64,000 bases of DNA, from assembly GCF_018398315.1 (NCBI RefSeq), contig NZ_JAHBRW010000001.1, positions 554,001-618,000 on the forward strand, written 5' to 3'. Under the pieces are notes generated by a model, which saw nothing but the letters and a program-made list of their open reading frames with translations, was not told the DNA's origin and ran no database searches. Every line of letters starts with the position of its first letter. The stretch's first letter is position 1. Position numbers and translations under genes: made by a program. Positions 51,847 through 64,000 of the stretch are shown here, in pieces. The DNA is from Chelatococcus sp. YT9 (GTDB lineage Bacteria > Pseudomonadota > Alphaproteobacteria > Rhizobiales > Beijerinckiaceae).

Positions 51847-52893
51847 ATGACGACTTACGAAGCCTTCAATAGACCGCAACGTTTCCTGCGCCTGCGCCAG
51901 TTCTCGGGCAAGGCCGTTTCCATCGTGGTCACTCTGGTCGGCCTGCTGCTGCTGACCTTCACGATGGGGAGGCTCTTGCCCGCGGACCCCGTCCTTGCTG
52001 TCACCGGCTCGGAGGTGGACCGGGCCACCTACGAGCGCGTCTACAACGAACTCGGCCTCGGCGAACCCATCTGGAGGCAGTTCGCGTCCTATATCGGCCG
52101 CATCGTGACAGGCGACATGGGACAATCGCTGACCACGGGCCGCCCTGTCGCGCAGGACCTTCTCACGGTCTTTCCAGCAACGATCGAACTCGCGCTTGTC
52201 GCCATGCTGTGCGGCACTTTGATCGGCGTTCCGCTCGGCATCGTCGCCGCCATCAATCGCGGCAAGCTCATCGACCATATCGCGCGCATCGTCGGCCTCG
52301 CCGGCCATTCCATCCCGATCTTCTGGCTCGGTCTGATGGCGCTCTTCGTCTTCTATGCCAAGCTGCAATGGGTGTCGGCCTCCGGGCGCATCGACATCCT
52401 CAATGAGGGGCTCGTGCCGCCGATCACCGGGCTCATGCTGCTGGACACCGCCTTGCAGGGGGAATGGGACGTGTTTCGCGACGCGCTATCCCACATCATC
52501 CTGCCCGGTGCGATCCTGGGCTACTATTCGGTGGCCTATATCAGCCGCATGACCCGCAGTTTCATGCTGGAACAGCTCGGGCAGGAATACATCATCTCGG
52601 CGCGCGCCAAGGGCGTTTCGCGACGCCAGATGATCTGGAGCCATGCCTTCAAGAACATTCGCGTGCAGCTGCTCACGGTGCTGGCGCTGACCTTTGGCGG
52701 ACTGCTCGACGGCGCCGTGCTGATCGAGACCGTGTTCGGCTGGCCTGGCCTTGGCCAGTATCTCACCCGGGGGCTGAAGATGAACGACATGAACGTGGTG
52801 ATGGGAGCTGTTCTGCTCATCGGCGTCGTCTTCCTGACCATCAACATCATCTCCGACAAGCTCTACCGCATCCTGGACCCGCGCACACGATGA
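51847..52893 (+). CDS. ABC importer permease, DppB/OppB type
   Basis: A 348-residue membrane protein, longer than usual through an N-terminal tail. TGDMGQSLTTGRPVAQDLL, coupling loop SARAKGVSRRQMIWSHAFKN and [21 protein letters not shown] (part) fix the family. It lies 20 bases after the binding protein. Confidence 0.92.
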   Translation: MTTYEAFNRPQRFLRLRQFSGKAVSIVVTLVGLLLLTFTMGRLLPADPVLAVTGSEVDRATYERVYNELGLGEPIWRQFASYIGRIVTGDMGQSLTTGRPVAQDLLTVFPATIELALVAMLCGTLIGVPLGIVAAINRGKLIDHIARIVGLAGHSIPIFWLGLMALFVFYAKLQWVSASGRIDILNEGLVPPITGLMLLDTALQGEWDVFRDALSHIILPGAILGYYSVAYISRMTRSFMLEQLGQEYIISARAKGVSRRQMIWSHAFKNIRVQLLTVLALTFGGLLDGAVLIETVFGWPGLGQYLTRGLKMNDMNVVMGAVLLIGVVFLTINIISDKLYRILDPRTR

Positions 52894-53813
52894 CGGCGAT
52901 CATGACATCCCCCGGCGCGCGGCCGAAGAGCTGGCTCAAGACCGACACGCCGAAGGACGCTTTCCAGGCCAGCGTGCAGCAGCTCTATCAAGGCTGGCGC
53001 CGCTTCGCGATCCATCCGCTGGGGCTCCTGGGGCTCGGCATCATCCTCATTCTGGTCGCCACAGCCGTCGCAGCCCCCTGGCTGACGCCCTACGATCCTG
53101 CCGCCCAGAACATGATGGGGCGCCTGCAGCCACCCTCATCAGCCCATTGGCTCGGCACGGATGAGTTCGGACGAGACGTGTTCACGCGCGTCGTCTATGG
53201 CGCGCGGACCACGCTTTACATCATCATGCTCGTCACGGTGATCGTTGCGCCGATCGGTCTGATCATTGGCGCGTGCGCCGGCTATCTCGGTGGCTGGGCT
53301 GATGAAGTCCTGATGCGCGTCACGGACATCTTCCTCTCTTTCCCCGGCCTCGTGCTGGCGCTCGGCTTTGCAGCCGCCCTCGGCCCCGGCATCACCAACG
53401 CGATCATCGCTATCGCGCTCACCGCCTGGCCGCCCATGGCGCGTCTGGCCCGCGCCGAGGCTCTGTCGCTGCGCAACGCGGATTTCATCGCGGCCGTGCG
53501 ACTGCAGGGCGCCTCGAGAACACGCATCGTCACGCGCCACATCCTGCCGATGTGCCTGCCGTCCGTGATCGTGCGCATCACCCTCAACATGGCGGGCGTC
53601 ATCCTGACGGCGGCGGGCCTCGGCTTCCTCGGCCTCGGCGCGCAGCCGCCCATGGCCGAATGGGGCGCCATGGTCTCCACGGGGCGCGAATACATGCTGG
53701 ATTCCCCCTGGGTCGTGGCAGCGCCCGGCATCGCCATCGCCGTGGTGAGCCTCGCCTTCAATCTCGCGGGTGATGCGCTCCGCGACGTGCTCGATCCGAA
53801 GGCAGGCGAATGA
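52890..53813 (+). CDS. ABC importer permease, DppC/OppC type
   Basis: A 307-residue membrane protein: LGTDEFGRDVFTRVVYGART, VRLQGASRTRIVTRHILPM and GLGFLGLGAQPPMAEWGAMV. The real start is ATG 52890, overlapping the previous stop; open codons to the left are not supported. Confidence 0.92.
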   Translation: MTAIMTSPGARPKSWLKTDTPKDAFQASVQQLYQGWRRFAIHPLGLLGLGIILILVATAVAAPWLTPYDPAAQNMMGRLQPPSSAHWLGTDEFGRDVFTRVVYGARTTLYIIMLVTVIVAPIGLIIGACAGYLGGWADEVLMRVTDIFLSFPGLVLALGFAAALGPGITNAIIAIALTAWPPMARLARAEALSLRNADFIAAVRLQGASRTRIVTRHILPMCLPSVIVRITLNMAGVILTAAGLGFLGLGAQPPMAEWGAMVSTGREYMLDSPWVVAAPGIAIAVVSLAFNLAGDALRDVLDPKAGE

Positions 53814-54691
53814 CCGACACAGCGAAGGCCGCGACCAAGCCCCTGATAGAGGCCCAAAATCTTCGTATCGCCTTCGGCCGAGGCGAGGCGGCCGTGGAGG
53901 TCGTCCACGGCATCTCGTTCACACTCGGCCGGGAAAAGCTCGGTATCGTGGGCGAATCCGGCGCCGGCAAGTCGACGATCGGCCGCGCGATCATGCGCCT
54001 CTCGCCGCCTGGAGCGCGCGTCACGGCCGACCGGCTCACCTTCAAGGACGTGGACCTGCTCAAGGCCAGCGAGAAGGAGATGATGGGCCTGAGGGGCCGG
54101 CGCATCGGCCTCATCCTGCAGGATCCGAAATATTCGCTCAATCCTGTCGTGCCGGTGGGCGAGCAGATCGCCGAGGCCTGGCGGCTGCACCATCCCGGAC
54201 GCGCAGGGGCGCGCGAGGCGGCCGAACGCACCCTATCCATTCTGGAAGCGGTGAAGATCCGCGATCCCAGGCGCGTCGCCAAGCTCTATCCGCACGAGAT
54301 TTCCGGCGGCATGGGCCAACGCGTGATGATCGCCATGATGCTCATCGCCGGCCCCGATGTGCTGATCGCCGACGAGCCGACGTCCGCGCTCGACGTCACC
54401 GTTCGGCTGGAGGTGCTGACGCTGCTCGACGAACTCATCGAGAGCCGCGGCCTCGGCCTGATCCTCATCAGCCACGACCTCAACCTCGTGCGCCGCTTCT
54501 GCGACCGTGTCGTCATCATGTATGCCGGGCGCATCATGGAAACACTGAAGGCATCCGAGCTCGACAAGGCCGAGCATCCCTATACGCGCGGGCTCCTCGG
54601 CTCCCTGCCCTCCATTCACAGCGAGCAGCACCGCCTGCCGGTGCTCACGCGCGATCCGGCATGGCTTCTCGGCGCGGGGGCGGCACGATGA
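53810..54691 (+). CDS. ABC importer ATPase, DppD/OppD type
   Basis: A 293-residue ATPase with Walker A GESGAGKS, Q-loop LILQDPKYSLNPV, signature ISGGMGQR, Walker B VLIADEPTSALD and H-loop ISHDLNL. It is shorter than typical DppD because the Cys-containing C-terminal extension is missing. ATGA overlaps on both sides. Confidence 0.92.
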   Translation: MTDTAKAATKPLIEAQNLRIAFGRGEAAVEVVHGISFTLGREKLGIVGESGAGKSTIGRAIMRLSPPGARVTADRLTFKDVDLLKASEKEMMGLRGRRIGLILQDPKYSLNPVVPVGEQIAEAWRLHHPGRAGAREAAERTLSILEAVKIRDPRRVAKLYPHEISGGMGQRVMIAMMLIAGPDVLIADEPTSALDVTVRLEVLTLLDELIESRGLGLILISHDLNLVRRFCDRVVIMYAGRIMETLKASELDKAEHPYTRGLLGSLPSIHSEQHRLPVLTRDPAWLLGAGAAR

Positions 54692-55455
54692 TCGAGGTCG
54701 AGGATCTCAACATCCGCTTCGCCCATGACGCGCCGCTCGTCGTCGCGGGCCTGTCGTTCAAGGTCGCCACGGGCTCGACCTTCGGCCTTGTCGGGGAGTC
54801 GGGCTGCGGCAAGTCCACGGTTCTGCGCGCACTGGCGGGTCTCAACACCAATTATTCCGGCGAGATCCTGCTGGATGGCACCCCGCTGCCGCCTCACCGC
54901 CCGAAAAGCTTCTTCAAGCGGGTCCAGATGGTCTTCCAGGATCCCTACGGCTCCCTGCATCCCCGCCAGACGATCCAGGCACAGCTGCTGGAGCCGCTAC
55001 GCAATCAGGGAATCCACAAGCCGATCACGGTGGTCGGCGAGGCGCTGGAATCAGTCGGCCTGCCGCGCGCCGCCGCCTTCCGCTTCCCGCATCAGCTCTC
55101 CGGCGGACAGCGTCAGCGCGTCGCCATCGCCCGTGCGCTCATGCTGGAGCCCGACGTCCTGCTGCTCGACGAGCCGACATCCGCGCTCGACGTCTCGGTG
55201 CAGGCGGAAATCCTCAACCTGCTCATGGACCTGCGCGCTGAGCGCAATCTCACCTATGTGCTGGTGAGCCACGATCTCGCCGTCATCGCCCACATGTGCC
55301 ACGACATCGCCGTGATGCAGGGCGGCCGCATCGTCGACAGCTTCGATGCCGCGCAACTGCGCGCCGGCAATCTCACGCATCCCTATACGCGGGAGTTGCT
55401 GACGGCGAGCGAGGCCTATGGCGAGGGACCCGCGCCGCAGGTGCAGCTGGCTTGA
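54688..55455 (+). CDS. ABC importer ATPase, DppF/OppF type
   Basis: A 255-residue ATPase with Walker A GESGCGKS, Q-loop MVFQDPYGSLHPRQ, signature LSGGQRQR, Walker [13 protein letters not shown] and H-loop VSHDLAV. Start ATG 54688 overlaps the previous stop. It also lacks the C-terminal extension, like its partner. Last gene of the six-gene operon. Confidence 0.92.
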   Translation: MIEVEDLNIRFAHDAPLVVAGLSFKVATGSTFGLVGESGCGKSTVLRALAGLNTNYSGEILLDGTPLPPHRPKSFFKRVQMVFQDPYGSLHPRQTIQAQLLEPLRNQGIHKPITVVGEALESVGLPRAAAFRFPHQLSGGQRQRVAIARALMLEPDVLLLDEPTSALDVSVQAEILNLLMDLRAERNLTYVLVSHDLAVIAHMCHDIAVMQGGRIVDSFDAAQLRAGNLTHPYTRELLTASEAYGEGPAPQVQLA

Positions 55456-55804
55456 ACATGCGGGCGTGATCCCCTTCCCGTCGCTGCGCGACGCCGGGAT
55501 GATACGCGGGAACCGCCCCCTGATCCCTCCCCCTTGGGGGAGGGTGGCCTCGCGCCAGCGAGGTCGGGTGGGGGCACGAGGCCGGGAACGATGCTCCGCC
55601 CGCCATGCAGCGCTTACCCCAAGCCCGTCGAGACACCCCCACCCGGCGCCTGCGGCGCCCCCCTCCCCCAAGGGGGAGGGATCAGCGCGGCGTCCAGGGC
55701 AGCGAGGATAGGCGCCGACCCATCCGCTTGTCGTCCCCGGCGTCGCGCAGCGACGGGAAGGGGATCCATCGCCGCCGCAAATGCTTGTCGAGCGCGACGC
55801 TATT
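55456..55804. other. Non-coding region filled by inverted repeats
   Basis: About 350 bases between convergent ABC genes. Nearly all of it is occupied by the nested inverted repeat at 55468-55766, and no gene is supported. Confidence 0.7.
55468..55766. repeat. Nested inverted-repeat element
   Basis: Outer arms of 31 bases (55468-55498 and 55736-55766) are exact reverse complements. Inner arms of 23 bases (55522-55544 and 55661-55683) are also exact complements, and each is itself a hairpin of CCCTCCCCC and GGGGGAGGG. Between them GGGTGGGGG and CCCCCACCC add a further match. No open frame or target-site duplication was seen. The arrangement looks like a non-autonomous repeat and likely forms a long RNA hairpin that ends both converging transcripts. 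Confidence 0.7.
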
Positions 55805-56581
55805 CTAATGTCCAGCGGGAAAGCCGAGCTCCGTATAGATCCGCCGGCAGTATTCGCCGAAGTTCTCATGCGTCTTCAAGGCGACGGTGCGTTCGCCGGG
55901 AAACGTAATCGGAAAATAATCCGCCATGCGGGCAGGGCCTGCCGTCAGCACGGCGCAGTGGGTTCCCAGGAACACCGCCTCCTGGATGCTGTGAGTAACG
56001 AAGATAATCGTCTTGCCGCTCTCGCCCCAGATGCGCAGCATCTCGATGTGCATGTGCTCCCGCGTCATGGCGTCGAGCGCGCCGAACGGCTCGTCCATGA
56101 GGATGAGCTTCGGGTCATGGATCAAGGCGCGGGCGATGGCTGCGCGCTGCTGCATGCCGCCTGAGAGTTCCTGCGGATATTTCTCCGCGAACCCGCCGAG
56201 GCCGACCATCGCGAGGAGGTGCTTCGCCCGTTCGCGCGCCTCGCGCATCGGCAGGCCAACGATTTCCGCCGGCAGGAGCACGTTGTCCATGATGGTGCGC
56301 CACTTCAGAAGCAACGCCTGCTGGAACACCATGCCGACGTCACGCCCGGGGTTGAACGGCGTGCCCGCGTTGCCGATCGCGACCGTGCCGCCATCGGCCG
56401 TATGCAGCCCGGCGAGGATCTTGAGCACTGTGGTTTTGCCGCAGCCCGAGGGGCCGACGAGAGACACCATCTCGCCCTCGGCGATATCCATGGTCACGTC
56501 CGAGACAGCGAGGAATTCCCGCGAGCCGGAGCCATAGACCTTGCGCACATTGCGCAGACTGATGAAGGGCGCTCCGCTCAT
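55805..56581 (-). CDS. ABC importer ATPase, SsuB/TauB type
   Basis: A 258-residue ATPase with Walker A GPSGCGKT, Q-loop MVFQQALLLKWRTIMDNV, signature LSGGMQQR, Walker B LILMDEPFGALDAMTRE and H-loop VTHSIQEAVFL, the wording typical of nitrate/sulfonate/thiamine-precursor importers. Start ATG 56581 overlaps the stop of the DHDPS-family gene. Partner subunits are the permease at 59631 and the binding protein at 61423. Confidence 0.93.
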   Translation of the reverse strand: MSGAPFISLRNVRKVYGSGSREFLAVSDVTMDIAEGEMVSLVGPSGCGKTTVLKILAGLHTADGGTVAIGNAGTPFNPGRDVGMVFQQALLLKWRTIMDNVLLPAEIVGLPMREARERAKHLLAMVGLGGFAEKYPQELSGGMQQRAAIARALIHDPKLILMDEPFGALDAMTREHMHIEMLRIWGESGKTIIFVTHSIQEAVFLGTHCAVLTAGPARMADYFPITFPGERTVALKTHENFGEYCRRIYTELGFPAGH

Positions 56582-57642
56582 GCCAGCCACCGTTCGAGAT
56601 TGGCCCGGACGAAGTCGTCGTCGCCGAGATCGGCATGCTCCACGCGCACACGGTCGATCTCGGCCTTCTGGCCCGGCCCGAGGCCCTCCTCGGGGTCGAG
56701 GCACCAGATGCCTTCGAGCAGGCCCTGCAGGCGCAGGATCTCATGGCAGCCGGCAATGCAGCCGTGGAAATTGTTGGCGACGTCGAAGAAGGCGGCGTTG
56801 CAATCCGTGACGCGCGCGTCGAGCGCCAGGAGATCGGCATCGACATGGCCGGCGTCGCGCGCCGCGCGACAGCGCTTCATCAGTTCCACGGCCTTCGATG
56901 TCCAGACCGACCAATGCCCGAGCAGGCCGCCGCGGAAGCGCACCCGCGCCGTCTCGCCGTTGCCGCGACGCACGTCGAAGGGCGTCACCAGATCGAGCAC
57001 GATGTGGTCGTCATTGCCGGTATAGAGCGTCACGCGATCCTCGGCGCGGGCGAGCGCGACGCCGCGCGCGACATCGAGCGTGCGATAGCGGTGGAAGGGC
57101 GCCACCTTGATCGCCACCACATTGTCGATCGCCGCGAAGCGCTGCCAGAAATCGACGCCGAGCGTCATGCCGCCGACGGCGCTTTGCAGATAGAAGCCGA
57201 TAAGCGGGATTTCCCGCGACACGGCCTCGCAATGGGCGATCAGCGCATCGACGCTCTCGCCCTTCATGGCGGCGAGGCTGAGGAGGCCCGCGTGGTAGCC
57301 GTTGGCGACGGCGATCTTCGCCTCGCGGATCGCCTGTTCGGTCGCGCCGCACAACCCGGCCACCATGACCAGAGGCCGGTCCGTCCAGGCCCGCGCCGTC
57401 TCGGCTGCAAGCTTCAGCACCGGCTCGTAGAGCCCGACATCGCGGATGGCGAATTGCGTGGTGTGCACGCCAACCGCAAGTCCACCGACGCCAGCATCGA
57501 GATAATAGCGCGTCAGGGCGCGCTGGCGGCGCTCGTCGAGCTGGCGCGCGGCGTCGAGTGCCAGCGGATGCGCCGGGATGACGGCCCCTTCACGCAGAAG
57601 GCCAAGAACATCCGGGCTCAGGTCCGTGTGATGCAATCCCAT
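56578..57642 (-). CDS. DHDPS-family protein, divergent active site
   Basis: A 354-residue protein of the dihydrodipicolinate synthase superfamily. Schiff-base Lys179 (VVAIKVAPFHRYRTLD) and Tyr151 (IGFYLQSAVGG) are present, but the usual GxTGE loop reads GVHTTQFAI around residues 58-66. The protein is about 50 residues longer than normal, mainly at the C-terminus (LEGIWCLDPEEGLGPGQ). It likely makes or cleaves a C-C bond through a Schiff base on a non-standard substrate. It is embedded in the NMT1-type importer operon. Confidence 0.82.
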   Translation of the reverse strand: MGLHHTDLSPDVLGLLREGAVIPAHPLALDAARQLDERRQRALTRYYLDAGVGGLAVGVHTTQFAIRDVGLYEPVLKLAAETARAWTDRPLVMVAGLCGATEQAIREAKIAVANGYHAGLLSLAAMKGESVDALIAHCEAVSREIPLIGFYLQSAVGGMTLGVDFWQRFAAIDNVVAIKVAPFHRYRTLDVARGVALARAEDRVTLYTGNDDHIVLDLVTPFDVRRGNGETARVRFRGGLLGHWSVWTSKAVELMKRCRAARDAGHVDADLLALDARVTDCNAAFFDVANNFHGCIAGCHEILRLQGLLEGIWCLDPEEGLGPGQKAEIDRVRVEHADLGDDDFVRANLERWLA

Positions 57643-57700
57643 GATTCAGCCTCTTGCTTCAGCCTCTGCAACAGTTCATCGCGCCCTTTCGGCGCAGTCT

Positions 57701-58564
57701 TCAGCCGTATTCGGGCCCGGCTCCGGCCATGAATTCACTGCCAAAACCTGCGAGATCCTGCGCCCCGCGCACCATGCGCAGGAACGGGCGCTCCTCGATG
57801 AAGCCACGCGCGATGAGATGCGCGCGAAGGGCCTCGCGGCCCGCCGCAAGATCGATCACCAGTTCGCCGGGCTCGCCGGCCAGAATGCTGTCGACCAGCG
57901 CCGACGCACGCGCCTCGTCGGTCGCGAGGATCGGGCCGAGCTGGCGCGCCTTGCGGCCGTCGCGCAGGAGCGCAATCGCCTCGCCCTGCTGATGGAGCCG
58001 CGAGCCCGCGCGGCCGACCATCTCGTTCAGGACCGCCGCGCGGCTGAAACCGAAGACGGCCTCGTCAGCCGCGACGAGGGTGGCGACATCCCCCTCCCCG
58101 CTCCCACTCCGCGCAAGGTCCGGCGGCACAATCACCGGCTTGACACTCGCGAGCTTGCGGCGCAGGCGCACCAGATCGCCCGCCGGCCGAAAGCCGAGCT
58201 GTTCATAAACCGTGGCGCCCGCCGGCGTCGCATCGAGCCAGCAGGTCAGGGAGCGTTCGTCGGCAACCGCGAGGCAGCGCATCATCAGCGCCGTCGCCAG
58301 TCCCCGGCGACGCCAGTCCGCATGGACGAGCACGAGGCTGATCCAGGCTGCCGGCGGATAAGGTAGGAGCGCCGCCGTGGCGACAACCCGGCCATCAGGT
58401 GTACGTGCCGCGAAGACATCGGCCATCGCGAGGAACAGGCGCCAGTCATCCGCCGTCTGGTTCCAGCCGGCGGCATCGGAGAGGGCAAGCCCTGCCGCCT
58501 CCTCGCCTGGCTTGAGGCGACCGAGGCTGATCCCGTCTTCGGCTATGGCCTCAGTAGCGCCCAT
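57701..58564 (-). CDS. GNAT N-acetyltransferase with C-terminal YitH-like domain
   Basis: A 287-residue protein with two GNAT-like parts. The N-terminal half (residues about 10-135) has the acetyl-CoA motif [16 protein letters not shown]. The C-terminal half (about 150-275), with [15 protein letters not shown] and [20 protein letters not shown], looks like the YitH/Acetyltransf_18 domain. The acceptor is unknown. It overlaps the epimerase-like gene and belongs to the same leftward operon. Confidence 0.82.
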
Positions 58565-59603
58565 CCCGCACCTCGAACTTGGTCGGCTTGCCGTGGCTCG
58601 GCATTTCGCGCGCCACCCAGTCTGCCGTCCACTCGATCATCTGCGCCGTTGAGACGACAGGCTCACCGAACAGGCTGACCGCGAGTGAGGTATCGGTAAG
58701 CCACGCCGTGGGCGCTTCCGTGCCGGTGATGACCGGAGCCTTGCCGAGCCGCTCGCCCATGCGGACCGCGAGATCGCGCACCGCCAGGATCTCGGAGCCG
58801 CTGACATTGATCGGGCTCGTCGGCGTGGTGCAGTGCTTCAGGCAACGCAGCGCCTGCGCGGAGGCATCGCCCTGCCAGATCACATTGACATGGCCCATGG
58901 TGACATCGATGGGCTTGCCGGCGAGGACCTTGGAGGCGATGTCGTGCAGCACGCCGTAGCGCATGTCGATGGCGTAATTCAGCCGGAAGAGACGGCCCGG
59001 CGTCCCGAACTTCCCCGAGAAATACTCGAAGAAGCGCTCGCGGCCCACGCAGGACTGGGCATATTCGCCCGGCGGATCGGCCGCGACGCTTTCATCGGCG
59101 CCGCGCCCGTCTACGGGCACGAAGGGATAGACGCAGCCCGTCGAGAAGGCGACGATGCGCGAGGCGCGGAAAGCCTGTGCCACGATGCCCGGAACATGGA
59201 CATTCATCGCCCAGGTCAGGCCGAGATCGCCCTCGGCGCCGAACTTGCGCCCCGCCATGAAGATGATGTTCTCGACCTTGGGCAGCGCCGCGACCGCCGC
59301 CTCGTCGAGCAGGTCGCAGACGATGGTCTCGATCCCGCGCGCCTCCAGGGCCTCTTTCAGGCCCGGCTCCGAGAAACGCGCCACGCCGATGACGCGCTTG
59401 TGCGGCGCGGCCGCCTTGGCGAGACCGGCGACCGTCGGCCCCATCTTGCCCCCGACGCCGACGATCATGATGTCGCCATCAATGGCGGCAAGATCGTCGA
59501 TCAGGGCCTGCGAGGGCAGGCACAGCAGATCGTCGAGCTCCGCGATCGAGGTGATGCGCGCAGGCAGGGATGCCGCGGTGAGCACTGACGGGGTCGATGT
59601 CAT
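58551..59603 (-). CDS. NAD(P)-binding epimerase/dehydratase-like protein lacking YxxxK
   Basis: A 350-residue extended-SDR-like protein. The dinucleotide loop reads GVGGKMG (residues 49-55), and FSTGCVYPF at 153-161 fits the central Ser region. The position of the catalytic YxxxK motif reads Y181-AQS-C185, so the Lys is replaced by Cys, though the Tyr and the following GRERFFEYF are kept. Normal epimerase chemistry uses that Lys to lower the Tyr pKa, so the enzyme may work differently or bind nucleotide for another purpose. Operon member between the permease and GNAT genes. Confidence 0.8.
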
Positions 59604-59630
59604 GTGGACCTCTTTGGACCGCTTGGGACC

Positions 59631-60446
59631 TTATTGAACGCGGACGTCCTTGACGATGACCAGACGCTCCAGGAGGAGCACGAGGCCATAGAGCAGGATG
59701 CCGAGAAGCGTGAGAAGGATGACGGCCATCAGCATGGCCGGCGTATCGAGCGAAGACTGCACCTGGATCATCAGGTAGCCGAGGCCGCGCTCGGAGGCGA
59801 TGAACTCACCGACGACCGCACCCGCAACAGCGAGAATGGCGCCGACCTTCATGCCGGAAAACACGTAGGGCAGCGCGCCGGGTAGCTGGATCTTGCGAAA
59901 GAGCTGCCAGCGCGTGCCTTTGAGCGAGCGCACCAGATCGAGCAGGTCGGGATCGACCTCGCCAAGACCACGTGCCGTCGTCAGGAGGATGGGAAAGAAG
60001 CAGATGCTGAAGGCGATCAGAATATTCGGTATGATCCCATAGCTGAACCACACGATGAACAGCGGTCCAAGCGCCACTTTCGGAATCATGTTCAAGGTCA
60101 CGAACAGCGGCAGGAAGATAAGCGCCAGCCAGCGCGACCATGAAAACAGAAGAGCAAGTGTCACACCAATGATGACGCCGAGGCCATAACCGCCGAAAAT
60201 CTCGGCCGCCGTGACAAGCGTATTGGAAACCCAGGCATACTGGTCTGAGCCGAGCGTCGCCAGAGTAGCGGCTGGGGACGGCAGGATGAAGGCCGGTATC
60301 GCGAACCAATCCACCGCCCATTGCCACAGCAAGAGCACAGCGAGATGCGCGGCGACAATCACGCCCGCCCGGCTCAACGATCGCCAGCGCGCCGCAGAGA
60401 TCTCAGCGGATTGATCGCGGATGACAGGGATAGATTGCTCCGACAC
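59631..60446 (-). CDS. ABC importer permease, SsuC/TauC type
   Basis: A 271-residue membrane protein with about six helices. VRSLKGTRWQLFRKIQLPGALPYVFSGMKVG is the coupling motif (part: RSLKGTRWQLFRKIQLPGAL), and GEFIASERGLGYLM is standard. The start is GTG 60446 with AGGAG 8 bases before. It heads the leftward operon of five genes. A TetR-type operator lies 55 bp upstream. Confidence 0.9.
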   Translation of the reverse strand: MSEQSIPVIRDQSAEISAARWRSLSRAGVIVAAHLAVLLLWQWAVDWFAIPAFILPSPAATLATLGSDQYAWVSNTLVTAAEIFGGYGLGVIIGVTLALLFSWSRWLALIFLPLFVTLNMIPKVALGPLFIVWFSYGIIPNILIAFSICFFPILLTTARGLGEVDPDLLDLVRSLKGTRWQLFRKIQLPGALPYVFSGMKVGAILAVAGAVVGEFIASERGLGYLMIQVQSSLDTPAMLMAVILLTLLGILLYGLVLLLERLVIVKDVRVQ

Positions 60447-60500
60447 CGTTCCCGCTCCTTTCAGGATTGCCGGGAGGCTAGAGCAATGTCGATCACAAAT

Positions 60501-60515
60501 CAACCAACTAGTTGA
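60501..60515. promoter_or_regulatory. TetR operator candidate, permease operon side
   Basis: CAACCAACTAGTTGA, containing the perfect palindrome CAACTAGTTG at 60505-60514. It touches the tetR stop codon and lies 55 bp before the permease start. A copy with one difference is at 61231-61245. Confidence 0.6.
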
Positions 60516-61172
60516 TTATTTGATGAGGATGGAGCTCATCACAAGGTCGACTATATGGCGGCGCCGGGCCTTTACCGCCGCCTGTGCCATCAAGTCTTTC
60601 TTGAAAATGGCGGAAAGCGTCGGCGCATTGGAGAAGTAGAAATAGCCGAGGCCCGCAATCGAGATATAGAGCTGCATCGGGTCGATGCCAGGCCGGAAAA
60701 CGCCCTCCCTGGTCCCCTTTTCCAGGGTCTCGGCGATCAGCGCGACGAACGGCGAATGCATCTCCGGCAGCATGGCGGACGCCTTCACGTGGCTGGCGCC
60801 ATGGCGGTTCTCGTCATTGAGCAGCGCCACGAAATCGGGATGATCCTTGAGATGGTCGAAGGAGGTCTCGATCAGGCGTTTGATGGCCTTTTCCGGCGCC
60901 AGCCCGCGCAGATTGAGCGTGCGTTCCTGTGCACGGATCTCATCATAGATCCATTCGAGCACAGCGAGATAGAGACCGTCCTTGTCACCGAAATAGTGAT
61001 AGACGAGCTGCTTGTTGACCCCGGCGCGCGCGGCGATCTCGTCGACCCGCGCCCCGGCCAGTCCCTTCTGGGCGAACTCGACACGCGCGGCGGCCATCAG
61101 GGCCTGCCGGCTCGCCACGGGATCGCGTCGCGCGCGCGGCGGTCGAGTTCCCGCACTGATCACCTCGGTCAT
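60516..61172 (-). CDS. TetR family regulator of the NMT1-type importer genes
   Basis: A 218-residue regulator with N-terminal HTH (ARVDEIAARAGVNKQLVYHYFGDKDGLY in part, residues about 30-75) and a C-terminal domain with ERGTREGVFRPGIDPMQLYISI-like sequence (here EGVFRPGIDPMQLYISIAG) of the RutR/AcrR C-terminal type. Start 61172 is preferred over 61193 since GGAGG lies before it. Operator copies flank the gene on both sides, so it likely controls the leftward operon, itself and the divergent binding protein. Confidence 0.92.
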   Translation of the reverse strand: MTEVISAGTRPPRARRDPVASRQALMAAARVEFAQKGLAGARVDEIAARAGVNKQLVYHYFGDKDGLYLAVLEWIYDEIRAQERTLNLRGLAPEKAIKRLIETSFDHLKDHPDFVALLNDENRHGASHVKASAMLPEMHSPFVALIAETLEKGTREGVFRPGIDPMQLYISIAGLGYFYFSNAPTLSAIFKKDLMAQAAVKARRRHIVDLVMSSILIK

Positions 61173-61230
61173 TACGGCCTCCTTCAGCCCCACGCCCCGC
61201 CGGCGAGCTTATCATTACATCGCACGCTAC

Positions 61231-61245
61231 CAACCAACTGGTTGA
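61231..61245. promoter_or_regulatory. TetR operator candidate, binding-protein side
   Basis: CAACCAACTGGTTGA, 14 of 15 identical to the site at 60501-60515. It lies 59 bp before tetR and 178 bp before the binding-protein gene, between divergent promoters. Confidence 0.6.
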
Positions 61246-61422
61246 AAAGTATTTGACGCCCGCCAACAGGGTTGGTAGCGATTTATGGATCGCGCGACAA
61301 GCACGATGGCAATGAGACCACGACCGCGGCACCAAGGATCTGGCAGCATCGCGCGTGCTGCGGGAATTGTCAGCCGCGCTGGCATATCGGACGCGTGCTT
61401 TGACGAACAGAGGGGAATTGTC

Positions 61423-62433
61423 ATGAAGATTGTCCAGATGATCGGCACCGCCGCGCTGGCCTTGTCGGTCGCCAGTGGCGCAGCTCAAGCAGCCGAGAAG
61501 CTCAATCTTATTCTGAATTGGACACCGACTGCTGACCACGCGCCTTATTACTATGCGAAAGCGCAGGGCTGGTACGAGAAGGCCGGCATTGATCTCAACA
61601 TTGAAGTCGGCAAGGGCTCAGGTGTCGCGGCGCAGAAGGTCGGCGCCGGGCAGTCGGAGCTCGGCATCGCCGATCTCGCCACGGCGATCGTCGCGCGGGG
61701 CAAGGGCGCCGACGTCGTCGCGGTCATGAGCGTCTACGCCAATACGCCGCAAGGCTTCTACTGGCTCAAGAGTTCGGGCATCAACGGCGCCAAGGACTTC
61801 CCGGGCCGCAAGATCGGCAACCCGCCGGGTGACGCCTCGCGCGTGATGTGGCCGGCGTTTGCCAAGGCGGCCGGCATCGACCCGAAGGCGGTCAGCTTCG
61901 TCAACATCACGCCGCAGGCCAAGATGCCGTCGCTGAAGAGCAAGGCGGTCGACATCATCAGCGATTTCTACAACGAGCATGACCTCAAGGTGCGCGAATT
62001 CGGCGACGACCTCGGCTATCTCTCGTGGAAGGAAGTTGGCCTCAATCCTTATGGCAATTCCATCATCGTCAATGGCGCCTATCTCGCCAAGAACGAGAAG
62101 GTCGTCGAGGACTTCGTCAAGGTGAGCCAGAAGGGTTTTGCCGCCTGCGTGGCCGATGTGAATCCCTGCCTCGACGCGCTTGTCGCCGCGACGTCCGGCC
62201 TCGACCGGCAGGTGCAGGCCAACCAGTGGGAGCGCATCAAGGAGATGATGACGGACGAGTTCACCGTCTCCAAGGGCCTTGGCTGGATCGACGCGGATCG
62301 CGCCAAGAAGGACTACGAACTGGTCTCCACGATGATCGGTCTCGACAAGCCCTTCGACGCCGCCGCCATTTCCACCACGAAGTTCCTCGATCCGTCGATC
62401 AAGATGGACGCGAGCAAGGTGAAGAAGCAGTAA
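61423..62433 (+). CDS. NMT1/SsuA-type solute-binding protein
   Basis: A 336-residue binding protein with a Sec signal (KIVQMIGTAALALSVASGA, cleavage near AQA-A). The mature start LNLILNWTPTADHAPYYYAKAQGWYEKAGIDLN (part: NWTPTADHAPYYYAKAQGWY) matches the NMT1/ThiY group that binds pyrimidine thiamine precursors, taurine and similar small molecules. GLGWIDADRAKKDYELVS follows later. AGGGGA precedes ATG 61423. Its membrane and ATPase partners are in the leftward operon across tetR. Confidence 0.9.
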   Translation: MKIVQMIGTAALALSVASGAAQAAEKLNLILNWTPTADHAPYYYAKAQGWYEKAGIDLNIEVGKGSGVAAQKVGAGQSELGIADLATAIVARGKGADVVAVMSVYANTPQGFYWLKSSGINGAKDFPGRKIGNPPGDASRVMWPAFAKAAGIDPKAVSFVNITPQAKMPSLKSKAVDIISDFYNEHDLKVREFGDDLGYLSWKEVGLNPYGNSIIVNGAYLAKNEKVVEDFVKVSQKGFAACVADVNPCLDALVAATSGLDRQVQANQWERIKEMMTDEFTVSKGLGWIDADRAKKDYELVSTMIGLDKPFDAAAISTTKFLDPSIKMDASKVKKQ

Positions 62434-62445
62434 GGCCCCGAGGCC

Positions 62446-63366
62446 TCAATACCCCGCCGTGCGATCGACAAGGCCGCGCGGCGGCTTGCCGTTTCTGAGC
62501 GCCTCGATCGCCTGTGCCACCTGCGCCGCGGCCGTCGCCGGCACCGTCCAGCTTGCGGCATGCGGCGTGACGGTCACCGCGGGATGGGTCCAGAACGGAT
62601 GGTCCGGCGGCAGCGGCTCCTGCCGGAACACGTCGAGCGTTGCCCCCGCAAGATGCCCCTCGTCCAGGAGGGCGATGAGATCCGCTTCGACGAGATGCTC
62701 GCCCCGGCCCGCATTGATGAGATAGGCGCCTCGTGGCAAGCGGGAAAGGCGCGCGCGGTCGAGAAGGTCCTCCGTCGCGGCCGTCTGCGGCAAGAGCGAG
62801 ACGAGAATGTCGCTCTGTGCGAGACAGGCGGACAAACCATCGTCACCGGAGAAGACGTCCACGCCTTCGACAGGGCGGCCGCGCCGGCTCCATCCGCTCA
62901 CGGCATAGCCGAGCGACAGGAACTGCCGCGCGCAGGCCTGGCCGAGCTCCCCCATACCGAGAATGCCGATTCGCGCGGGGACGACATCGGGACGAGCCCA
63001 GCGGCGGTCGCGTTGATGGGCGGTCATCACCTCCCAGCGGCGATGGTGATGCAAGGCGGCGAGCACCACATATTGCACCATGTTGCGCGTCAGGGACGGG
63101 TCGATCATGCGGATGACCGGGAGGTTCGTCGGCACCGTGGGATCGGAGAGAATATGGTCGACGCCGGCGCCCAGCGAGAAGATGCCCTTGAGATTGGGGA
63201 AGCTCGCGATGACGCCCCGGTCGGCCGCCCATGTCAGGACGAATTCGACATCGTCGGCCGGCCCGGTCTCTGGCCAGACACGCACGTCGAGATCGGGGCA
63301 TTCGTGGGCGAGCGCCTCCAGCCATGCGGCCACGGGCGCGGTCTTGCGGATGATGACGAGGCTCAT
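62446..63366 (-). CDS. D-2-hydroxyacid dehydrogenase, GhrA-like (glyoxylate/hydroxypyruvate reductase)
   Basis: A 306-residue NAD(P)-dependent dehydrogenase. The cofactor loop GILGMGELGQACARQFLSLGY is at about residues 133-153 (part), with the catalytic Arg in NAGRGEHLVE, Glu in DVFRQEPLP and His in VTPHAASWT. The layout is that of GhrA. It reduces 2-oxo acids to 2-hydroxy acids or the reverse. It overlaps the oxidase gene upstream by 4 bases, so the two are co-transcribed. Confidence 0.9.
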   Translation of the reverse strand: MSLVIIRKTAPVAAWLEALAHECPDLDVRVWPETGPADDVEFVLTWAADRGVIASFPNLKGIFSLGAGVDHILSDPTVPTNLPVIRMIDPSLTRNMVQYVVLAALHHHRRWEVMTAHQRDRRWARPDVVPARIGILGMGELGQACARQFLSLGYAVSGWSRRGRPVEGVDVFSGDDGLSACLAQSDILVSLLPQTAATEDLLDRARLSRLPRGAYLINAGRGEHLVEADLIALLDEGHLAGATLDVFRQEPLPPDHPFWTHPAVTVTPHAASWTVPATAAAQVAQAIEALRNGKPPRGLVDRTAGY

Positions 63367-64000
63367 GGTTTCTCCCCTGCCGCGGCGGACGGTTGCTTAA
63401 AGCGATCCGGGCGGAACGCCTCGACGGGTGTCGGACTGCGGCCATCACAAATCAGTTCGCAGAGCACCTCGCCAACGGCCGGCGCGATCTGGAAGCCACC
63501 TCCGCTGAACCCGAAGGCGTGGAAAAGGCCCGGCACGCCGGCGCTCTCCCCGATGAAGGGGCTCTTGTCGGCGGTGTAACCCTCGATCCCGGCCCAGATG
63601 CGGATGACGCGGGCGTGGCGCAAGGCCGGCAGAATGGCCGCGGCACGGCCGCCGATGCGCGCCAACGCGCTACTGTCGGGACGGGAGGCGCCATCGCCGC
63701 TCGCCACGCCGAAGCCGCCGCCCATCACGAGATTGCCGCGCTCGACCTGCCGTCCGTAGAAGCCGCCGCCCTCGACGCCGATATTGACGCTGACGATCGG
63801 CGGAAGCGGCTCGGTGACGAGAATGGTCGGGTAGTCGACACGCATGGGAATATGGTCATCCAGCGCCGCCGCGATCTCCGCCCCCCACGCGCCCGCCGCA
63901 TTGACCAGCCGGCGGGCGCGCACCGTGACGGCCTCGCCGCACCGCAGCAGAAAGCCGTCGCCCGCGCGCGTGATGGCGGTCACCGGGCAACGCTCGATCA
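63363..64000 (-). CDS. FAD-dependent amino acid/amine oxidase (DAO family), N-terminus outside window
   Basis: The leftward frame is open at base 64000 and ends at 63363, giving the C-terminal 212 residues. ARRLVNAAGAWGAEIAA is the DAO-family FAD motif, GIEGYTADKSPFIGESAGVPGLFHAFGFSGGGFQIAPAVGE contains the C-terminal flavin site (parts: PFIGESAGVPGLFHAFGFSG, GGGFQIAPAVGE). Relatives include glycine, sarcosine and opine oxidases. The product of such oxidations (for example glyoxylate) would be a substrate for the co-transcribed GhrA-like dehydrogenase. The N-terminal GxGxxG lies outside the window. Confidence 0.88.
   Translation of the reverse strand, partial: IERCPVTAITRAGDGFLLRCGEAVTVRARRLVNAAGAWGAEIAAALDDHIPMRVDYPTILVTEPLPPIVSVNIGVEGGGFYGRQVERGNLVMGGGFGVASGDGASRPDSSALARIGGRAAAILPALRHARVIRIWAGIEGYTADKSPFIGESAGVPGLFHAFGFSGGGFQIAPAVGEVLCELICDGRSPTPVEAFRPDRFKQPSAAAGEKP

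Follow-up and report, generated by a model that had tools for sequence, protein, structure and literature searches.

What does a bacterium take up and break down when it keeps an NMT1-type ABC importer, a DHDPS-like protein, a GNAT acetyltransferase and an SDR without its usual lysine beside a single TetR gene? The question is raised by positions 55805-62433 of a 64,000-nucleotide stretch of DNA from Chelatococcus sp. YT9 (the window), which were studied together with their neighbours up to position 64000. On balance, we take the operon found there to be one module of an undescribed catabolic system whose genes are spread over several loci. The likeliest substrate, in what is close to an even call, would be a polyhydroxylated compound, sugar-acid-like or cyclitol-like, because the partner enzymes and importers are of carbohydrate type. 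A description of the gene set was not found in the literature searched, which was mostly open-access at abstract level with few or no subscription papers or preprints.

The genes for the permease, SDR, GNAT, DHDPS-like protein and ATPase form one leftward run with overlaps or gaps under 60 bp, as the sequence-only reading of this DNA had described; open reading frames, families and spacings agree on this. The ATPase and DHDPS-like genes overlap by 7 bp and the GNAT and SDR genes by 14 bp, with gaps of 58 bp between DHDPS-like and GNAT genes and 27 bp between SDR and permease genes. That reading also placed matching TetR-type sites at both promoters, which were recovered, and the TetR gene outside the operon, which was not borne out: it lies on the same strand directly upstream of the permease gene, 12 bp away (69 bp if the permease starts at the GTG near 60446), so that it belongs to the leftward run and the operator is internal. 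The unit contains the following features.

55805-56584, minus strand: ABC importer ATPase of the nitrate/sulfonate/taurine type (PF00005), with 68-79% identity at the same position in the 53 exact-order loci described below
56578-57642, minus strand: DHDPS/NAL-superfamily protein of an unassigned subfamily (PF00701; K179, GVHTTQ and Y151; structure model and Foldseek)
57701-58564, minus strand: GNAT acetyltransferase with two domains (PF00583 and PF18014)
58551-59603, minus strand: extended SDR with the NAD-dependent epimerase/dehydratase fold (PF01370), YAxSCxGRER replacing YxxxK
59631-60503, minus strand: ABC importer permease (PF00528), likely start at the GTG near 60446, with 61-81% identity in the 53 exact-order loci
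60501-60515, no strand: putative operator 1, CAACCAACTAGTTGA, between the TetR stop and the likely permease start
60516-61193, minus strand: TetR-family regulator, RutR-like (TetR_N and PF17938; TIGR03613 at 62.8 bits, cut-off 368)
61231-61245, no strand: putative operator 2, CAACCAACTGGTTGA, in the intergenic region between the TetR and binding-protein genes
61423-62433, plus strand: periplasmic binding protein of the NMT1/THI5 fold (PF09084), divergent from TetR

The two central enzymes match their Pfam families at 29.4 bits (DHDPS-like, PF00701, cut-off 22.1) and 25.1 bits (SDR, PF01370, cut-off 20.9).

Co-occurrence of the operon genes in other genomes had been proposed as a check, and the genes do travel together. 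When one genome of each species was scanned, relatives of the DHDPS-like protein turned up at at least 583 places; the best 80 of these, some of them on short contigs, were analysed. All seven genes (binding protein, TetR, permease, SDR, GNAT, DHDPS-like protein and ATPase) are present in 65 of the 80 loci, and 53 of the 80 have the exact order of the window, every one of them in the window orientation. Across these 53 loci the GNAT changes fastest, at 31-50% identity, the other six products being 53-81% identical. At least ten named genera are represented; judged by record titles, 37 of the 53 loci belong to Bradyrhizobium, and the other 16, in which the DHDPS-like protein is also 68-79% identical, include Rhodoplanes, Ferrovibrio, Roseomonas, Phreatobacter, Microvirga, Nitratireductor, Variovorax, Rhodopseudomonas and Pseudochrobactrum. 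In Burkholderiales the same members are present, arranged in a different order. The DHDPS-like gene was found in 12 of 398 genomes of the phylum (E <=1e-40) and the SDR gene in 30 of 347 genomes of the order (E <=1e-30). The distribution is patchy yet coherent, since few genomes carry the genes while the gene set and its sites are conserved together.

The sites concerned are exact matches to CAACCAACTNGTTGA at 60501-60515 and 61231-61245, found by a pattern search of the window. One further match in the window has two mismatches; 0.11 matches are expected from shuffled sequence, and no other copy with at most one mismatch was found in the 6.74 Mb genome, nor any copy of a reversed control pattern. 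The TetR protein looks dedicated to this locus, because its site pair is the only one in the genome at that stringency, and with a putative operator at both promoters and nowhere else the genes appear to form one regulated unit. Of the 56 loci with the binding-protein/TetR/permease arrangement, 55 reach a score of 10 or more in each of the two intergenic regions for an operator-like core of 13 positions derived from the window; in the sole exception just 30 bp of one intergenic region were examined. Mean core scores in the two regions are 11.5 and 12.2, against 8.5 and 8.3 in shuffles. The top NCBIfam model for the regulator is RutR (TIGR03613), far under its cut-off, and a family search made the regulator the best RutR match of the whole genome.

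The DHDPS-like protein keeps the Schiff-base lysine, K179, in 112 of 112 rows of its family alignment; here and for the SDR, family residue counts include short and repeated copies of the same genes. The carboxylate-binding loop of the DHDPS/NAL superfamily has the sequence G[ST]TGE, and the DHDPS-like family has GVHTTQ at its place instead, with H60 in 112 of 112 rows. Y151, present in 102 of 112 rows, falls at the superfamily tyrosine position in a hidden Markov model alignment and one residue off it in a MAFFT alignment with a single canonical member. The structure model (pLDDT 87.2, pTM 0.90) was compared with solved structures by Foldseek, and the 50 hits shown all belong to the DHDPS/NAL superfamily (best E 4.8e-11, identity 13-21%). 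PMC13398020 defines the superfamily by a TIM-barrel fold with a catalytic Schiff-base lysine, and a predicted TIM barrel with lysine at the catalytic position is what the protein appears to have; the same source reports the conserved catalytic tyrosine replaced by glutamate in KdaD. No true DapA or KdgD equivalog was recognised, KdgD scoring 19.8 bits against a cut-off of 374 and no DapA equivalog being listed at E <=0.001.

The lack of the SDR lysine, already noticed from the sequence, extends to the whole family: the tyrosine of YxxxK is kept in 109 of 110 rows (one gap), and the lysine position holds Cys in 100, Val in 10 and Lys in none. GRER is present in 109 rows. The model (pLDDT 91.0) predicts the Rossmann fold of extended SDRs, and the family lacks the full YxxxK pair of the classical members. 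By both sequence and fold the nearest solved relative is TerB, at 22-24% identity, and the next matches are mostly nucleotide-sugar epimerases and related enzymes.

These two active sites have changed together once. Seven DHDPS-like sequences carry Ser or Ala at Y151, and they fall into a single clade (support 100/100) of a tree built from 110 such proteins and an outgroup. They represent 11 cases before near-identical rows were dropped, and the neighbouring SDR has Val at 185 in all 11; Tyr is paired with Cys185 in the 104 other pairs, four SDR sequences that misfit the residue pattern having been left out of the count. Genes for an ECH-type protein and FAD_oxidored accompany all six of the 11 cases with enough flank, the other five being short copies of the same genes. 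The joint change of C185V in the SDR and Y151S/A in the DHDPS-like protein supports one shared pathway and does not prove it, because it is a single evolutionary event.

The importer is not a fixed part of the system. Overall, 133 of the loci gathered have the SDR, 131 the DHDPS-like protein and 123 both, short and repeated loci included. On annotated plasmids the SDR and DHDPS-like genes, adjacent or with one TetR gene between them, stand beside other importer types: a tripartite tricarboxylate (TctABC) system and a Dpp-type importer in Nitratireductor, MFS transporters in Rhodococcus and Prescottella, and carbohydrate ABC importers in Glaciihabitans, Paenibacillus and Streptomyces. Plasmids of Tistrella and Sulfitobacter carry the window arrangement. 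MetE-like (PF01717; L138 12303-13325) and PhyH (PF05721; L091 3592-4359) genes were each seen near the SDR in six of 54 loci compared. Aldehyde dehydrogenase genes occur in five of these 54 by clustering (L042, L068, L115, L130 and L147; Pfam checked for L042), and amidase genes likewise in five (L042, L043, L115, L130 and L136; Pfam checked for L136).

In 29 loci the SDR is accompanied by a divergent protein of the enolase superfamily, about 480 residues long. Among 23 sequences it conserves KxK, LDxNE, EQP, DExD and SxKxCKG, a pattern (KxK..D..E..DE..K) that we take to be that of the MLE subgroup. Acid-sugar dehydratases are of the catalytic-His type; a role as a sugar-acid dehydratase was set aside, as the motifs look MLE-type and not His-type. 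The enolase is present in 22 of 25 genomes that bear the system (22 of 26 once G010 is counted) and in 2 of 40 that do not. Without G010, Fisher's test gives p = 4.5e-12 when genomes are counted and p = 4.4e-5 when genera are (8 of 11 against 2 of 32), the latter count removing relatedness only partly. The 25 bearers were hand-picked from three scans, with 11 of the 30 SDR-scan genomes and G010 left out, and one of them (G073) has the DHDPS-like gene but no SDR in the fetched stretch; the 40 non-bearers have no match or a weak one only (G021 and G058), and the SDR in no case.

The window genome has two enolase copies. The first (C1:1599824-1601161) shares its locus with another NMT1-type importer and two TetR genes whose products are about 49% identical to the window TetR; this locus (L127 7655-17485) adjoins an MlrC-like protein and a class-III aminotransferase, both named by eye. 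The second is in a paralogous operon at about 3.58 Mb (L110 6208-16395), which encodes a binding protein, enolase, ATPase, permease, SDR, DHDPS-like protein whose Tyr is replaced by Ser, CoA transferase, ECH-type protein and FAD_oxidored. Enzyme sets related to it, with a CaiB-type CoA transferase, were seen on Rhodococcus and Glaciihabitans plasmids, and its enolase copy in one relative of the genus (G003:C1:1655418-1656779) has an in-frame TGA.

In 9 of 11 further enolase loci the enolase is joined by a trio of a Gfo/Idh/MocA protein (Gfo), DUF993 and a xylose-isomerase-like protein (SPI); seven of the nine also contain an NMT1-type importer, the remaining two coming from the two non-bearers. 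Ten loci (L032, L037, L049, L077, L083, L085, L091, L113, L132 and L134) have Gfo and DUF993 together with the SDR or the DHDPS-like gene within one fetched stretch of up to about 21 kb; SPI was unmatched in L091 and the SDR in L113. Gfo and SPI score best against keto-sugar and polyol enzymes (IolG, IolO, levoglucosan dehydrogenase and the like), far under the cut-offs. DUF993 alone is less specific, being found in 22 of 25 bearers and 10 of 40 non-bearers; in L163 (from the bearer G383) and L164 (from a non-bearer) no match to the trio's Gfo or SPI accompanies it. In the window genome the trio lies on contig C2 (L161, 7060-14795), beside two hydantoinase/oxoprolinase-like genes named by eye. 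All parts are therefore present in this genome, scattered. The sequence-only reading had seen an undescribed pathway in the NMT1-type importer and three enzymes under one TetR; the unit is indeed conserved and no description of it turned up in the literature searched, but that picture was too small, because the importer is swapped elsewhere and a set of partners is linked to the unit by neighbourhood and by presence and absence.

We picture the system as follows. The TetR protein would hold off the genes for the importer and the three enzymes until a compound or an intermediate binds it, repression being suggested by the two putative operators at the promoters. The importer would take up a small compound, on which NAD(P)-linked enzymes (the Lys-less SDR and, elsewhere, the Gfo/Idh/MocA protein) would oxidise or reduce hydroxyl or keto groups and which enolising isomerases encoded elsewhere (the MLE-type enolase and the xylose-isomerase-like protein) would rearrange. 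The DHDPS-like protein would form a Schiff base through K179 and cleave or dehydrate a 2-oxo acid, most simply to pyruvate and an aldehyde; an aldehyde dehydrogenase is encoded in some loci. The GNAT may acylate an intermediate or a side product. What the data show directly is the gene set with its joint conservation, the operator sequences, the fold families, the conserved residues and the co-occurrence of the enolase; the order of steps and the catabolic direction are, like repression and the substrate class, what we infer from these. A broader proposal, which we hold more tentatively, makes the SDR, usually with the GVHTTQ DHDPS-like protein, and the MLE-type enolase of about 480 residues a widespread catabolic hub: many compounds would be channelled to one shared intermediate on which these enzymes act, with every lineage contributing an importer and upstream enzymes of its own. 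It draws on the joint change of active-site motifs where CoA-linked genes are present.

Several observations weigh against a multi-locus catabolic system. Ligand, substrate and product can be named as a probable class at most, and NMT1-type binding proteins are not known as sugar carriers. The loci analysed were the best-matching 80 among at least 583, and Bradyrhizobium dominates the exact-order ones. The GNAT is absent from several loci with SDR and DHDPS-like genes, while the SDR occurs with GNAT and no DHDPS-like gene in the fetched stretches L131, L133, L138 and L139 and without either in L136 and L144. A DHDPS-like gene lies elsewhere in the same genome for L131, L133, L136 and L139 and about 40 kb off (L158) for L144, which leaves L138 as the sole one of the six without one at another fetched place. 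On three haloarchaeal plasmid stretches the SDR is present and no DHDPS-family gene is annotated. No enolase match was found in the bearers G383, G512 and G073, nor in G010. No site agreeing with the window operator at 14 or more of 16 positions was found at the enolase loci, and joint control of these loci by that operator was rejected on that ground. DUF993 was considered as a second DHDPS, since both families have an IK and a YTGxDD stretch, and was rejected when profile comparison gave a probability of 3.3%.

Other readings account for parts of the same evidence. A chance grouping of genes, preserved through recent shared ancestry and serving no common pathway, is scarcely credible: the locus is kept as a block in its genus and most exact-order loci are from Bradyrhizobium, but that reading is already contradicted by the same order at 68-79% DHDPS-like identity in the 16 loci outside Bradyrhizobium, by the reordered sets of Burkholderiales, by operator-like sites that match across loci and by the co-occurrence of the enolase counted by genus. 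It is very unlikely that the unit serves salvage or catabolism of the thiamine pyrimidine or another pyrimidine, carried by the importer and sensed by a relative of RutR. The binding-protein profile does match the FAMP-binding protein 3ix1 (3.4e-27) and THI5 (3e-26), after 4nmy (3.7e-41), and the regulator's model and rank in the genome point to RutR. A thiamine pyrophosphate (TPP) riboswitch upstream is usual, not universal, for ThiXYZ importers. At gathering scores the window gave no Rfam match at all, and hence no TPP riboswitch, one tRNA being the sole match across five sources, and the thiamine link was set aside for want of a riboswitch. Among the matches shown for nine proteins no thi, rut or pyd family reached its cut-off (the DAO fragment described below scores 41.8 bits against ThiO, cut-off 250.8), the SDR and DHDPS-like pair also stands beside carbohydrate ABC, TctABC and MFS transporters, and the enolase, Gfo and xylose-isomerase-like partners misfit a pyrimidine route.

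Breakdown of an aromatic, quinone-like or pyrone-like ring, reduced by a TerB-like SDR and opened by CoA-linked steps, is unlikely. In its favour, the nearest solved relative of the SDR was co-crystallised with polyporic acid, and in one branch genes for a CoA transferase, a protein of enoyl-CoA-hydratase type and FAD_oxidored are added. TerB is a distant relative, followed mostly by nucleotide-sugar epimerases, the CoA branch is a clade of 7 in the tree of 110 that does not hold the window gene, and the partner enzymes are mostly of sugar type. In operons of N-succinylamino-acid racemases an amino acid is acylated, epimerised and deacylated. A route of this logic, in which the GNAT would acylate an amino acid, the MLE-type enolase epimerise the acyl derivative and an amidase deacylate it, fits the residue pattern of the enolase family, the amidase genes in 5 of the 54 loci and the serine ammonia-lyase genes near two plasmid copies. 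We find it quite unlikely, as the GNAT and the enolase occur apart in many loci and the sugar-type trio is left unexplained.

Two genes follow the unit.

62446-63366, minus strand: GhrA-like 2-hydroxyacid dehydrogenase, a neighbour judged to be outside the unit
63363-64000, minus strand: DAO-type FAD oxidase (PF01266), cut by the window end, likewise a neighbour judged to be outside the unit

A link of the unit to this oxidase/dehydrogenase pair had been suggested. The pair is real but separate: it is found in none of the best 80 of at least 583 loci, stands at the same place in three other genomes of the window genus, the only such cases seen, and has no operator copy at up to one mismatch in a genome search. 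Membership was rejected on these grounds, and we judge the two genes to be mere neighbours. On the other side, a rightward operon for an Opp/Dpp-type (dipeptide/oligopeptide) ABC importer at 51847-55455 runs up to the end of the unit and is kept there in three relatives of the genus. Between the two lies a perfect 31-bp inverted repeat (55468-55498 and 55736-55766) flanking a second, imperfect inverted repeat of 49 bp. The core of the former may be a dispersed palindromic element, because its 21 bases recur 8 times in the genome at up to two mismatches, two of the copies being here.

All the enzymes but DUF993 belong to known superfamilies, several in subfamilies without an assigned function, and for that reason we call this an importer-linked catabolic system of known kind with unassigned subfamilies. 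If our reading is correct, hundreds of bacterial species, to judge from the at least 583 places with DHDPS-like relatives, share a breakdown route for a compound yet to be named, built on a GVHTTQ DHDPS-like protein, a Lys-less SDR, a 480-residue enolase and DUF993, for which no function was found. The combined gene list and the importer swaps offer a concrete way to that substrate.

Several parts of the system have known counterparts from which they differ. The importer shares its fold family with the pyrimidine binders ThiY and THI5 (NMT1) and its architecture with ThiXYZ, SsuABC and TauABC, but no TPP riboswitch was found in the window, the enzymes misfit, and the transporter equivalog scores are under their cut-offs. 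RutR is the top family model for the regulator, and the palindrome presumably resembles the RutR box; the score nevertheless stays at 62.8 bits under a cut-off of 368, and the nine proteins scanned include no rut enzyme. For the SDR, the closest protein of solved structure is TerB, an NADP-dependent oxidoreductase of terfestatin biosynthesis (6d2v and 6nd7), from which the family departs in its 22-24% identity, its Cys or Val for the YxxxK lysine and its apparently catabolic setting with importer genes. With the class I aldolases DapA, NanA, KdgD and KdaD the DHDPS-like protein shares the predicted TIM barrel and the lysine, and by the hidden Markov model alignment a tyrosine falls at the superfamily position in 102 of 112 rows, whereas the GVHTTQ loop, an extra C-terminal part (354 residues in all) and an identity of 13-21% set it apart. 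Oxidative sugar-acid pathways combine a dehydrogenase, an enolase-superfamily enzyme and a DHDPS-type enzyme, as in the oxidation of uronates through KdgD. We know of none that includes a GNAT, DUF993 or an NMT1-type importer, and the enolase of the present system has, by our reading of the motifs, the Lys pair of the MLE type as against the His of acid-sugar dehydratases; the combination of enzyme classes is the same.

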